NCBI GenBank assembly: GCA_003162425.1 | Contig: PMOK01000037.1 | Coordinates: 32,668 to 96,667, forward strand | DNA length: 64,000 nucleotides | DNA from: Bryobacterales bacterium | GTDB lineage: Bacteria > Acidobacteriota > Terriglobia > Bryobacterales > Bryobacteraceae | Direction of reading: 5' to 3' | Part shown: positions 8,018 to 15,650 of the stretch, piece by piece | Layout of the letters: the number at the start of each line of letters is the position of its first letter | Numbering within the stretch: the stretch's first letter is position 1 | The notes under the pieces: generated by a model | The model's input: the letters and a program-made list of their open reading frames with translations, nothing else | Told to the model about the DNA's origin: nothing | The model's database searches: none | Position numbers and translations under genes: made by a program

Positions 8018-8740
8018 TCATGGTGCGGAATTGGCTTTCCGAATACGGATTGTCGTTGGAGTATAGGGCCGGCTGTGGGTCTTGGTCACGCTCAGGTCGG
8101 CCAGAAGCAGAGCCACCGGCTTGGATCGCATGGCCGATCCGCGGTCGGCATGCCGGCCGAGTTGGCCGGGTTGGATGTTCTGCTTTTCGCAGGTTTCTTC
8201 GATGAGCTTCTTGGCCAGTTCGGCGCTCTCGCGAGGAGCCACCATCCAGCCGACGACGTAACGGCTGAAGACATCGAGGATGACGTAGAGATAAAAGTAG
8301 GTCCACTTGGCGGGGCCGCGCAGCTTGGTGATGTCCCAACTCCAAAGCTGATTAGGCGCGGTGGCCAGCAGTTCCGGTTTCTGATACTGCGGATGGACGA
8401 GTTGATCGCGGCGCTCACGCGTTGCACCATCTTCTTCCAAGACACGATACATGGTCCGAGTCGAGCAAAGATACTGACCTTCATCGAGTAACGTGGCATT
8501 GATCGCGGCGGGCGAGCAATCCTGGAAGCGTTCGGAATTCAGCATCGCACGGACGGATTCGCGTTCGTCCATGCTCAACGCCCGAGCTGGAGTTGGCCGA
8601 GCGATGGAGACGGGAGGCGAAGCTGGCAGCTTTGGCCCTAACAGCGGGCGCTGCCGGTAGTAAGAAGCGCGAGCCACTCCGAGAACGTCGCAGGCAGATT
8701 CGATGCCGACGGTGGAAGAGAGCTGCAGGACGGCGTCCAT
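8018..8740 (-). pseudogene. IS3-family OrfB (rve integrase core), frameshifted near 8050
   Basis: RPLLGPKLPASPPVSIARP...WSWDITKLRGPAKWTYFYLYVILDVFSRYVVGW...HADRGSAMRSKPVALLLADL; continuation SNDNPYSESQFRTMKYRPEFPDRFG is in another frame. Confidence 0.85.
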
Positions 8741-9162
8741 TGTGGCTTCTCCTCCGCATCGACGGTCGAGATCGGACGGCCTAACAGCATGGCCACTTTT
8801 TTTTGAATATCAATCACGATCTCGGCTTTGCGCAGCTCCTCGGTGAGGCGCTGGGTTTCGCGGCGCAAGTGCTGGTTTTCTTCAGCGACGGGATCACGCT
8901 TGGACTTGGGGCCACGCTTTTGCGGAGTCAGTGCCTGGAGAACGCCAGCTTCTCGCTCCCGCCGCCAGGTCGCCAACAGCGAAGAGTACAACCCTTCGCG
9001 TCGAAGCAGAATCCCGATCCCGCCGGAGCCTTTGGCCTGGTCCACCTCGGCCAAGATGCGTTGTTTGTATTCGCCGGTGAAACGGCGGCGCTTGGCCTGA
9101 GCCACGACTTTCGGGGTCCGGGTGGGTCTTAGGATCGGCGCCGACCTTACCGTCAGTGGCAC
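8638..9162 (-). CDS. IS3-family OrfA (HTH)
   Basis: RRRFTGEYKQRILAEVDQAKGSGGIGILLRREGLYSSLLATWRRE. Confidence 0.75.
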   Translation of the reverse strand: MPLTVRSAPILRPTRTPKVVAQAKRRRFTGEYKQRILAEVDQAKGSGGIGILLRREGLYSSLLATWRREREAGVLQALTPQKRGPKSKRDPVAEENQHLRRETQRLTEELRKAEIVIDIQKKVAMLLGRPISTVDAEEKPQWTPSCSSLPPSASNLPATFSEWLALLTTGSARC

Positions 9163-11337: not shown

Positions 11338-12170
11338 TTGGCGGCGCTGCGCAACGTTCCGCCGGTCTTGCGTCTAGTTTGGAATGCCGCGCCCGGGGTA
11401 GCGGCAGCAGGGCTATCGCTCCGCGTGGTGAGCGCTTTCATTCCGCTGGCCGCATTGACAGTTTCGAAGTGGATCATCGATCTGGTGCGTCGCGGCAGTG
11501 AAGCATCCCGGTCCGCTGCCGGGCGAGATTGGGATGCTACTCGGCGCGGAATTCCTATTGGCGGCGTTCGGCAATGTTCTGGCGCGTGCCATCGACTACA
11601 CCGATGCGCGGCTGGCTGATGAATTCACCCGCGAAGTGAGTCTGCGAGTAATGGAACACGCGACGGGGCTCGACTTGGCCTGTTTAGAGGATCCAGCCTT
11701 CTACGACAAACTGGAGCGCGCGCGCGTGCAAGCCACCGATCGGATCGGGATGCTCAATGCGATGGGCCGCTTGCTGCTGCAGTTCATCACGCTGGTATCG
11801 CTGTCAATTGGCGTGATTGTGTACTCGCCGTGGCTATTCGTGCTGCTGCTGATTTGCGTAGCGCCCGCCTTTGCCGGAGAGAGCCACTTTGCATTTCGCG
11901 GATACGCTCTCGCGCACGGGCTCACGCCGCTGCGCCGGGAACTGGATTATTTGCGAGTGCTAGCAAGTAGCGAGGAGAGCGCCAAGGAAGTGAAGTTGTT
12001 CGGGATCGCTGGTTACTTGCGAGGCCGCTACGAGACTCTAACCGATGAAGTAATCCGGAAGGACCGCGACCTGAGTCGCAGGCGGTTGTGGTGGGGGTCG
12101 GCCCTGGCGATTATCGGCTCACTCGGCTACTACGGAAGCTTCGCATATTTGGTTTGGCCCACGACCAGCG
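11338..12170 (+). pseudogene. Truncated, frameshifted ABC exporter TM domain
   Basis: Two frames (11338-~11500 and 11498-~12170) together form an ABC-exporter TMD; no NBD follows. Confidence 0.6.
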
Positions 12171-12195
12171 CTGACAGGGTTCCTCAACAGTCCCC

Positions 12196-13230
12196 TTACT
12201 CGATGATGCCGTGGATACGCAGACTCACCAACTGGTCCACTGTGAGACTCTTAACCCCCCGGGCTTGTACCTTCTGAATATAGTCCGGCGTGACCCCGTG
12301 GATGCGCATGGAAACAAGTTGGTCCAGCGTCGGGTTGAAGCCTAGATTCCTCACTTGCTTGACATACTCTGAGGTTGCGCCGTGGATACGCAGCGAAACC
12401 AGATCGTCAGCGCTCGGATTGTAGCCCATGCCCTTCAGGTCGCGAACGAATTCGGGGCTCACGTCGTGGATGCGCATGGAAACAAATTGGTCCAGCGTCG
12501 GGTTGAAGCCTAGGCCCCTCATCTGCTTGACATATTCGGAGGTTGCGCCGTGAATACGCAGCGAAACCAGATCGTCAGCGCTTGGGTTATAGCCCATGCC
12601 CTTCAGGTCGCGAACGAATTCGGGGCTCACGTCGTGGATGCGCATGGAAACCAGGTGATCGGCCGTCAACTCGCGCAGACCGAGGTTCTTCAGCTCGCGG
12701 ATATAGTCGATGCTCACATTGTGGATGCTCATCGAGATCAAATCGTCCGATGAGCCTGGCGCCGCGCCGAGCGAGCGGAGATCGCGCACGTAGGCGGTCT
12801 TCACGTCATGCACCGCCATTGAGAACACGGTTTCCACTGGGAGGCCGTTGTAACCGAGCGAGCGCATCTCCGCTACGAAGTTCGCATTCGGCGAAAACGT
12901 GAAGGCGCCGGCGCCGTTGCCCGACCGGAAATATCCTTCGCAGCCGAGCGTACCCGCTTCGCGCGCGATCTCAAAGTGCACGGTCGCGCCGGCGGGCGAT
13001 TCCATCTGCTGCCTCGAGAGGCCGCGAAGTTGTTCCAGCGGAAGCGCCGAGCTACTGGTCATCTGGGAGCGCTCGGAAAAGCGGTGCAGCGTGAGTTGAA
13101 CCTTGCCGCCAGCCGGCGCTTGATCGGTGTGCGATGGATCGATGATCCACTGGCCGGTGATGATTTCCTCGGCCGGAAGAGCGTAGGCAAGCGTGAGCGC
13201 ACTGAGAGCGAGCAGAGTGATGCGAGTCAT
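12196..13230 (-). CDS. Secreted protein with tandem 28-residue 'xxLVSxRIHGVxxxYVxxxxxLG' repeats
   Basis: Signal-peptide-like N-terminus; eight IH(G/D/N) motif units. Confidence 0.85.
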   Translation of the reverse strand: MTRITLLALSALTLAYALPAEEIITGQWIIDPSHTDQAPAGGKVQLTLHRFSERSQMTSSSALPLEQLRGLSRQQMESPAGATVHFEIAREAGTLGCEGYFRSGNGAGAFTFSPNANFVAEMRSLGYNGLPVETVFSMAVHDVKTAYVRDLRSLGAAPGSSDDLISMSIHNVSIDYIRELKNLGLRELTADHLVSMRIHDVSPEFVRDLKGMGYNPSADDLVSLRIHGATSEYVKQMRGLGFNPTLDQFVSMRIHDVSPEFVRDLKGMGYNPSADDLVSLRIHGATSEYVKQVRNLGFNPTLDQLVSMRIHGVTPDYIQKVQARGVKSLTVDQLVSLRIHGIIE

Positions 13231-13247
13231 AATTTTCGTCCTTTGAA

Positions 13248-15062
13248 TTAGTCGAGAATTCCGTACTGCTTCAGCTTGATCAGTTTATCCAGACTGAGAT
13301 CCCTGAAGCCGTGCTTCTGGGCTTTGCGCACGAAGTCCACGTCCACGCCGTGGATGCACATCGCGATCACGTCGTCGGCGGTGAGGTTCGGATAACCTAG
13401 CGCGCCAATTTGCTTCACGGTGTCAGGGTTGGCGCCATGGATCTCAAGCGACACCAGCTTGTCGAAATTCAGCTCGCGAACGCCGGCCTGCTTGAATTGC
13501 TCCGCGATTTCGGGAGTTACACCATGGATCTTGAAGGAGACGAGCTGCTCGAAAGTCGGCGTACCGAAGCCCGCCGATTTCATTTGCCGTGTGAACTCGG
13601 GCGTTAGACCGTGGATGTACATGCTTACGATCTCGTTGGGCGTTAGTTTGTATCCCAGCTCCTGCATTTCTACAATGTCGGCAGGCTGGGCTCCGTGAAT
13701 CGCAAAGCTGACGATCTCATCTACCTTCAACTTCAGCCCAGCGGCCAAAAGCTCGCGGACATAGTCCGTAGTGACACCATGAATCTTGAGCGAGATGAGC
13801 TGGTCGACGGACAGATCTTTGTAACCGAGGGCTGCGATGCCGCCCACAAAACTCTTGTCCGAGGATGGCTCAGCCGTCTGCTCGGCCTGCGCGGCGGGCT
13901 GGGCCATGGCAACCAGTTTTGCCTTCGGTGTCTGAATCACCCGCTGCTCGACCTGTTGGTCAACCTGTTGGTCAACCTGGCTTGCCGTTGGCTCGGGACG
14001 CTGCTGATACAAGGCATTCACCAGACGCACGCTTTGCGCGGCGTGATCCAGACGGAGCCGCGGAGGCCCGCCCGATGTAGCCCAAATAGAAACAACGCAC
14101 AACACGATGGCAACTCCGGTGACCCAATCGGCATGGATCTCAGAGGGTGAAGATGCAGGATCGCGTTGGGGATCCAGGAGGCGGCGAACGCGCTGGAGCA
14201 ACGAACCGGAGTTGGCGGCCATGACAAGGCGCGGAGTCGCAATACGGATCTTCTCCAGTTCCGTTAGTGCGCGCGCGTAAACCAAAGCGTCGCCGCAAAC
14301 CGCGACAGCCAGATCGTCACAGCAGTTCTCCCGCTCCGCCCGCATTTGGCGGCCAACCCACCACACGGCTGGATGGTAGAACAACAGAGTTTCGATGGCG
14401 GTCTGGACCAGGTTCACCAGATAATCGTGGCGGCGGATGTGGGCCAGTTCATGCGCCAGCAGCGCTTCAATCTGGCTAGGCGCGAGGCCAGAGATAGCGC
14501 TCGCGGGCAACAATACAACCGGGCGGATCCAGCCGATAACCGCGGGCGTATGCGCAGTGGCGGATTCCCAGAGGCATACCTTCCGCGAAATAGTCAGGCG
14601 CTTGGCGAGTCGAGCCATGCTCTCCTGCCAGAACGCCTCCGCCAGCCGAACATTGCGGCGTTTCCAAAGTTGCGTCACCACCCATCCGCCGAGTGAACGG
14701 ATAGAGAGCGCCGTCACTCCCGCGACCCATATGTAAACCAGGACCGGGAAATAGTCCGGCATGCGGTCGCGCCACGATGTTGTCGCCGCCGCGCGCTGAG
14801 CGATATTGCCGGCCGGAGCGGCGATGGAACTCTGGGAAGCTGGCGGGTGCAACGGCGTTGCGATGTCGCCGGAGTCCAGGTAGACGAATGTAGCGCCGAC
14901 CGATGCCAGCATCAGCAACATAGCGGCCATCGCTCGGATGTATCGTGCCTGCGCGCCGCTATTCGGAAGAGCGTGTCGCGCGGCCCCGAGCAACGCCGCG
15001 ATGCCGGCTCCCTGCCACACAAAATGTATTAGCGTCCATCCAAGAGTATTTGTGAGATTCAT
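13248..15062 (-). CDS. BlaR1-like M56 peptidase with C-terminal IHG repeats
   Basis: N-terminal TMs, HELAHIRRHDYL, C-terminal repeats homologous to the downstream gene. Confidence 0.88.
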   Translation of the reverse strand: MNLTNTLGWTLIHFVWQGAGIAALLGAARHALPNSGAQARYIRAMAAMLLMLASVGATFVYLDSGDIATPLHPPASQSSIAAPAGNIAQRAAATTSWRDRMPDYFPVLVYIWVAGVTALSIRSLGGWVVTQLWKRRNVRLAEAFWQESMARLAKRLTISRKVCLWESATAHTPAVIGWIRPVVLLPASAISGLAPSQIEALLAHELAHIRRHDYLVNLVQTAIETLLFYHPAVWWVGRQMRAERENCCDDLAVAVCGDALVYARALTELEKIRIATPRLVMAANSGSLLQRVRRLLDPQRDPASSPSEIHADWVTGVAIVLCVVSIWATSGGPPRLRLDHAAQSVRLVNALYQQRPEPTASQVDQQVDQQVEQRVIQTPKAKLVAMAQPAAQAEQTAEPSSDKSFVGGIAALGYKDLSVDQLISLKIHGVTTDYVRELLAAGLKLKVDEIVSFAIHGAQPADIVEMQELGYKLTPNEIVSMYIHGLTPEFTRQMKSAGFGTPTFEQLVSFKIHGVTPEIAEQFKQAGVRELNFDKLVSLEIHGANPDTVKQIGALGYPNLTADDVIAMCIHGVDVDFVRKAQKHGFRDLSLDKLIKLKQYGILD

Positions 15063-15451
15063 TTCGTGCCTCGCTCATATTCGTCCAGAAGTTTGCGTAT
15101 CTCTTCCAGCTCTTGCGGTGTTGCTGTTTTCGCCGAAAGGACCTGCATGACTAGCTCACCGGCGGAACCGTCGAATGCGCGACCCACCAAGTCGCCCACC
15201 AGTTGCCGTTGCGTTTGCTCTTTTGGAACGCTGGCCTCATAAACGTGCGCGCGCTGAAACTGGACCTCATTGCGGCGAACCAATGCTTTTTCGGCCATGA
15301 TCTGCGTGAGTTTCAAGACGGTAGTGTACCCCGTCGGTTTGGTTTGGTTCAGAATGTCGTGGATCTCGCGCACGGTGGAAGGACCGTGGTTCCACAAAAC
15401 CCGCAGGATTTCCAGTTCCGCGTCCGTGGGCCGATTGGAAGGTCTCCGCAT
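15059..15451 (-). CDS. BlaI/MecI/CopY-family repressor
   Basis: TDAELEILRVLWNHGPSTVREIHDILNQTKPTGYTTVLKLTQIMAEKALVRR; stop/start overlap with BlaR1-like gene. Confidence 0.93.
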   Translation of the reverse strand: MRRPSNRPTDAELEILRVLWNHGPSTVREIHDILNQTKPTGYTTVLKLTQIMAEKALVRRNEVQFQRAHVYEASVPKEQTQRQLVGDLVGRAFDGSAGELVMQVLSAKTATPQELEEIRKLLDEYERGTK

Positions 15452-15650
15452 GCAGGATCTTACTACGAAATTATTCGTAGTGTCAACGAAATTCTTCGTA
15501 GTCTAGCTCGGAGAATTGTCACGATGATGTCGGGGTTGCCGCAACCGTCCCACCACGGCGTGATTCACGACAACTCCTCCATCATCGCGATCTCGACTTC
15601 TTGACTTTTTCGTCGGCGCTCGGGTTCGTCGCCCAGGCTACGCACAAAAA

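Follow-up and report, generated by a model that had tools for sequence, protein, structure and literature searches.

A three-gene operon that couples a BlaI-type repressor to an unusual M56 sensor protease lies on the minus strand at positions 12196–15451 of a 64,000-nt stretch of Bryobacterales bacterium DNA (the window: GCA_003162425.1, contig PMOK01000037.1, positions 32,668–96,667 of the forward strand; positions are counted within the window). The genes encode, in order of transcription, BlaI, an M56 membrane protease with a C-terminal repeat array, and a secreted protein carrying the same kind of repeats. With a little better than even confidence, we read the locus as an autorepressed operon with the secreted repeat protein as its chief output, which would also be a likely feedback partner of the sensor. 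An earlier note on this DNA had called the three genes at these positions, and both the open reading frames (ORFs) and Pfam agree; the junctions between them are overlapping (BlaI/M56) or 18 nt. The features are as follows, all on the minus strand.

15059–15451, minus: BlaI-type repressor, 130 amino acids (aa) (Pfam PF03965, Penicillinase_R, 2e-24)
13248–15062, minus: membrane metalloprotease of the M56 (BlaR1) type, 604 aa, ending in a repeat array (PF05569, Peptidase_M56, 8e-28)
14439–14453, minus: HELAH zinc motif of the M56 protein, aa 204–208 (sequence)
14076–14138, minus: last transmembrane helix of the M56 protein, aa 309–329, between protease and array (AlphaFold2 helix and hydropathy)
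13251–13850, minus: M56 repeat array, aa 405–604, seven repeats of 28–29 aa (motif reading and AlphaFold2)
12196–13230, minus: secreted repeat protein, 344 aa (ORF call and AlphaFold2)
12889–13161, minus: N-terminal beta domain of the secreted protein, aa 24–114, six strands (AlphaFold2)
12205–12885, minus: secreted repeat array, aa 116–342, eight IH-type repeats (motif reading and AlphaFold2)
15485–15500, minus: operator-like palindrome 1 (TACGAAGAATTTCGTT), overlapping the -35 box (sequence)
15464–15479, minus: operator-like palindrome 2 (TACGAATAATTTCGTA), filling the -35/-10 spacer (one of two exact genome copies)
15457–15486, minus: predicted core promoter TTGACA-18-TAAGAT (read from sequence)

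The M56 sensor and its secreted partner

The M56 protein has the protease anatomy of BlaR1. The third zinc ligand lies in E245xxxD249, 41 residues on from H204 of the HELAH motif, which is the spacing of BlaR1, where the zinc-site residues are numbered H201 and E242 (PMC9834060). In the AlphaFold2 model (mean predicted local distance difference test score, pLDDT, of 70, with array and protease confident) two N-terminal transmembrane helices are followed by a third long helix, the protease, the helix at 309–329, a disordered linker to about residue 402, and the array. Foldseek places the model close to Staphylococcus aureus BlaR1, with a target TM-score of 0.74 to 8exr_A over the transmembrane/protease region and an E-value of 8.5e-6 to 8exs_A. 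There is no Pfam match at E <= 1 to a transpeptidase or penicillin-binding protein (PBP) domain with an SXXK sensor, as the earlier note had read from the sequence, and the NCBIfam BlaR1 models match the protease part alone, under cut-off. The Pfam and NCBIfam scans also found no DUF3738 domain (PF12543/TIGR03435) in the window proteins. The repeat motifs, which the note had put at six or seven of about 28 residues, number seven with a divergent last member (KQYG), and lie at aa 424, 452, 480, 509, 538, 567 and 596. Because the array follows the last transmembrane segment, and taking sidedness from the topology of BlaR1, we infer that it is extracytoplasmic and faces the compartment into which the secreted protein is exported. 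All 37 repeat-bearing M56 relatives have HExxH, ExxxD and a transmembrane segment ahead of the array.

The secreted protein was modeled from an alignment with a mean pLDDT of 89.9 overall, as a signal segment, a beta domain, and eight hairpins, each of two nine-residue helices; its eight motifs, the number counted in the earlier note, span aa 137–336 at a spacing of 28–29. A whole-genome search aligns one array with the other at E 5e-43 and 41% identity, well past chance. The note's description of the two proteins as paralogues thus holds for the repeats and fails for the first ~115 residues of the secreted protein, a signal peptide and a separate beta domain that the window M56 lacks and that the note had not recognized. 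An N-terminal hydrophobic segment is present in 67 of 68 secreted repeat proteins.

By sequence comparison, the repeat family and the beta domain are without a name in the libraries searched. The repeat regions score over cut-off with nothing in curated Pfam and NCBIfam, including the Pfam helical repeat models (TPR, HEAT, SEL1, PPR and others), and neither these libraries nor a single-repeat profile links them to a described sensor domain, a link that would have spoken against the earlier note. Its guess of an alpha-solenoid fits the predicted helix pattern and has no solved counterpart. Foldseek returned nothing at E <= 0.001 for the secreted protein; the best fold matches are weak ones, at low TM-scores, to barrels of the CYTH and lipocalin types, and the beta domain is therefore left without a fold name.

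Predicted operators and conservation of the operon

The region upstream of BlaI (TACGAAGAATTTCGTTGACACTACGAATAATTTCGTAGTAAGAT), on which the earlier note was silent, contains two palindromes embedded in the predicted promoter: palindrome 1 abuts the -35 TTGACA and palindrome 2 spans the spacer exactly up to TAAGAT. The predicted -10 box stops six bases short of the BlaI ATG (15451–15462), and the operon mRNA may therefore be leaderless. The core ACGAA-N4-TTCGT, with at most one mismatch, lies upstream of BlaI in 17 of the 37 BlaI-M56-repeat operons identified, with two sites in 13, against an expectation from shuffles of 0.015 sites per operon. Other palindromes lie near BlaI in L048, L049, L057 and L068 (GGTGCTAA/TTAGCACC, TGATGCTA/TAGCATCA, AACTGCT/AGCAGTT and TGCTGGAAA/TTTCCAGCA, respectively), and are perhaps operators of divergent BlaI branches.

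The extended site TACGAA-N4-TTCGTA occurs exactly twice in the 8.7 Mb genome of the window, once at each of its two repeat operons, the second of which (BlaI-M56-secreted) is on contig C33. Sites with one mismatch number 32, against 14 in a reversed control, and are near background; one of them is palindrome 1 of the window and most of the others have no second palindrome, so a many-gene regulon in this genome was rejected. Twelve relatives contain 12 exact extended sites (ten at repeat operons, one inside a coding ORF, and one before an unlinked secreted gene), and the reversed pattern gave zero sites in the same genomes even with one mismatch allowed. At the unlinked gene (L190, = G254 C1) a full double operator lies 40 bp upstream of a secreted repeat gene with no BlaI or M56 nearby. 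Judged by this predicted operator placement, at repeat operons and at an unlinked secreted copy, the switch has the secreted repeat protein as its main nameable output.

The operon is not confined to this genome, being carried by soil Acidobacteria and by some Sphingomonadales and Gemmatimonadota. The genome samples are draws rather than censuses, the M56 and BlaI hidden Markov models (HMMs) were built here, and start codons in relatives were set by a mechanical rule. A single-protein query found no relatives and an eight-row alignment was too diverse, whereas a three-row alignment worked; Sphingomonadales (the order of a Sphingosinicella) and Gemmatimonadota (the phylum of a Gemmatimonadetes metagenome-assembled genome) were searched with a nine-row profile. 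The secreted protein or its repeats are present in 46 of 297 Acidobacteriota, 14 of 251 Sphingomonadales and 16 of 249 Gemmatimonadota genomes, and viral contigs gave no match. Of four other species sampled from the genus of the window, a single one has a copy, and the module is therefore patchy.

Association of the repeats with M56 peptidases, on which the earlier note had made its reading depend, recurs in many genomes of all three groups. The secreted gene comes next in most of the 37 operons; in Acidobacteria there are 21 adjacent M56-repeat/secreted pairs, with BlaI present in all by neighborhood HMM annotation, and the same gene order is found in Sphingomonadales (L149–L153) and Gemmatimonadota (L163). 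Tandem pairs of secreted genes occur in L043, L055, L097 and L099. In L051, L069 and L166 the M56 protein itself carries the beta domain of the secreted protein together with the repeats in one chain. A functional tie between the secreted gene and the M56 sensor is supported by the conservation of the operon in three bacterial groups, by these fusions, and by the operator before the unlinked secreted copy.

Proposed circuit and alternative roles for the shared arrays

In the circuit that we propose, BlaI bound to the two palindromes in its own promoter would hold the three genes low until the M56 protein picks up an envelope signal with its extracytoplasmic array of alpha-hairpins. By analogy with BlaR1/BlaI, reception would activate the cytoplasmic zinc protease, which would cleave BlaI, derepress the operon, and allow the secreted beta-domain/repeat protein to be made. 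This protein would share a compartment with the sensor array and is most likely both output and feedback partner, presumably through contact with the array or competition for a shared ligand. Gene order, domains, predicted folds, catalytic residues, the operator, the unlinked secreted target, and the fusions were computed here; mechanistic steps past anatomy and operators draw on knowledge of BlaR1.

Several observations weigh against this circuit. The ACGAA-N4-TTCGT operator is absent from 20 of the 37 operons, and with one mismatch its -35-extended form also precedes the BlaI/M56 pair on contig C90 of the window's genome, which lacks the repeats. In one relative (L196, G281) a double BlaI-type operator immediately precedes the gene for a secreted PF00144 protein of the beta-lactamase/AmpH-like kind. 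Since the same operator stands before the C90 pair and the PF00144 protein, the regulon, as predicted from these sites, may be wider, with other envelope genes joining in some species. Stand-alone secreted genes are common, so the partner is not strictly tied to M56, and secreted beta-domain/repeat genes end two operons of extracytoplasmic function (ECF) sigma factors (L054, 3356–6925, minus strand; L159, 4957–7716, minus strand). M56 arrays are also closer to the M56 arrays of other species than to their own partners, and any pairwise co-adaptation is therefore weak. Around these loci, the PF00144 gene lies away from any BlaI locus seen, the same relative has a DUF3738 protein with a single one-mismatch site upstream, and the ECF operon of L054 also contains a DUF4097 protein.

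A bolder possibility, which we think less likely than not, is that the sensor and its own secreted product recognize each other through their homologous arrays, such that the switch gauges a self-made extracytoplasmic protein. Feedback of this homotypic kind might extend from cell to cell, and the literature searched describes no such control for BlaI/M56 systems. Arrays within one operon are more alike (0.398) than those of shuffled partners (0.345 ± 0.007; 0 of 10,000), a comparison in which shared ancestry is uncorrected. Own-operon similarity exceeds cross-operon similarity in the window's genome (0.47 versus 0.37, and 0.36 versus 0.29), and in a second genome one comparison is tied and one favors the partner. 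As a sign of mutual recognition, this likeness between array sequences is suggestive only.

The presence of the same repeats on both proteins would also be expected if both arrays bind a common envelope or environmental ligand, such as a peptidoglycan fragment, glycan, lipid or peptide, without contacting each other; the M56 array would then sense what the secreted protein scavenges or neutralizes, and feedback on the sensor would be unnecessary. The secreted copies that stand alone among other regulators or neighbors of the envelope type (ECF sigma operons in L054 and L159, DUF4097 neighbors in L053 and L054) look effector-like, and a beta-lactamase/AmpH-like gene stands behind the same operator in one relative. 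The repeats match no known ligand-binding family, however, and their most conserved positions are a hydrophobic or glycine core without a clear binding-site pattern, and we regard a shared ligand as conceivable rather than probable. It is rather improbable that the sharing is only historical, the repeats being a generic periplasmic spacer duplicated between neighbors while the M56 protein senses through its transmembrane region or an extracellular loop and its neighbor, the secreted protein, has a function of a different kind. The arrays are indeed divergent and variable in length, and the secreted partners in L072, L073, L075 and L077 have few or atypical repeats, but the association is kept in three bacterial groups, three fusions include the beta domain, and the operator occurs in trans at an unlinked secreted gene.

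Two further readings start from the repeats themselves. Each repeat in the window has one histidine (IHG), which could form a metal-sensing ladder with a CopY-like response, and of the NCBIfam CopY_TcrY and BlaI models, both under cut-off for the window BlaI, CopY/TcrY gives the best score. This position nevertheless lacks histidine in 19 of the 37 arrays on M56 proteins and in 24 of the 68 on secreted proteins, where V, Y, F, Q or L stands instead; a metal ladder was rejected as a general role, and metal sensing is highly improbable. To a relationship with the DNA-binding repeats of TAL effectors, and hence nucleic acid binding, we give almost no credence. Both are tandem arrays of short paired-helix repeats, as are other two-helix arrays, and a profile at array level finds TAL-effector arrays of the PDB at 2e-15. 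That score is one weak resemblance multiplied over the repeats: a single-repeat profile has no match at E <= 10, Pfam TAL_effector (PF03377) matches one of nine members at E 0.014, no fold match is better than E 1, the TAL unit is 33–35 residues with a different profile, and the proteins are predicted to be exported.

Flanking genes and relation to other M56 systems

The flank downstream of the operon contains a piece of an ABC-transporter transmembrane region (PF00664; 10561–10947, minus strand) and plus-strand ORFs (11338–12277) that by eye resemble broken transporter pieces, the last of which overlaps the 3' end of the secreted gene antisense; these fragments suggest that the flank is decayed or rearranged. 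About 3 kb downstream is a transposase-type gene pair in overlapping frames (8018–9162; rve integrase core, 1e-21, and HTH_Tnp_1, 3e-6). PADLOC gave no meaningful match to anti-phage defense.

As in the BlaI-BlaR1 and MecI-MecR1 systems of staphylococci and bacilli, a BlaI-family repressor adjoins an M56 gluzincin with equal zinc motif spacing, the same transmembrane/protease fold, a C-terminal extracytoplasmic domain, and palindromic operators (here predicted) in the repressor's own promoter. The window system keeps all of the BlaI-BlaR1 core features tested and fails that of the penicillin sensor: a repeat array replaces the PBP-type SXXK domain, and the output gene in the same transcript encodes a secreted repeat protein rather than a beta-lactamase or PBP2a. 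Another parallel is found in the acidobacterial BlaI-M56-DUF3738 fusions (L203, L207), where the swapped C-terminal domain also occurs as separate proteins in the same genomes, although DUF3738 is an unrelated domain of ~190 residues without the 28-residue repeats. Free DUF3738/TIGR03435 proteins are many in the relatives' genomes. Together with the repeat/beta-domain case, the fused and free DUF3738 proteins show a design that recurs: the M56 protein has exchanged its tail for a domain that is also encoded as a stand-alone protein. We found no paper on M56 proteins with such repeats, nor on DUF3738.

The genome of the window has four further BlaI-M56 loci, all without the repeats. The M56 proteins on C5, C90 and C324 likewise have a BlaI partner, an M56 core and no penicillin sensor; they differ in having neither a repeat array nor a match to the secreted repeat protein, and their tails are of unassigned type, those of C90 and C5 sharing a similar repeated beta-type segment and that of C324 being coiled-coil-like.

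BlaI/M56 systems are understood almost solely as penicillin sensors, and yet this genome encodes five M56 proteins that pass the family cut-off, none with a penicillin sensor as far as their tails can be read. The repeat family and beta domain defined by the work are unnamed and span Acidobacteria, Sphingomonadales and Gemmatimonadota. With a sensor module, a probable output and an operator all named, what non-penicillin M56 proteins sense becomes testable.
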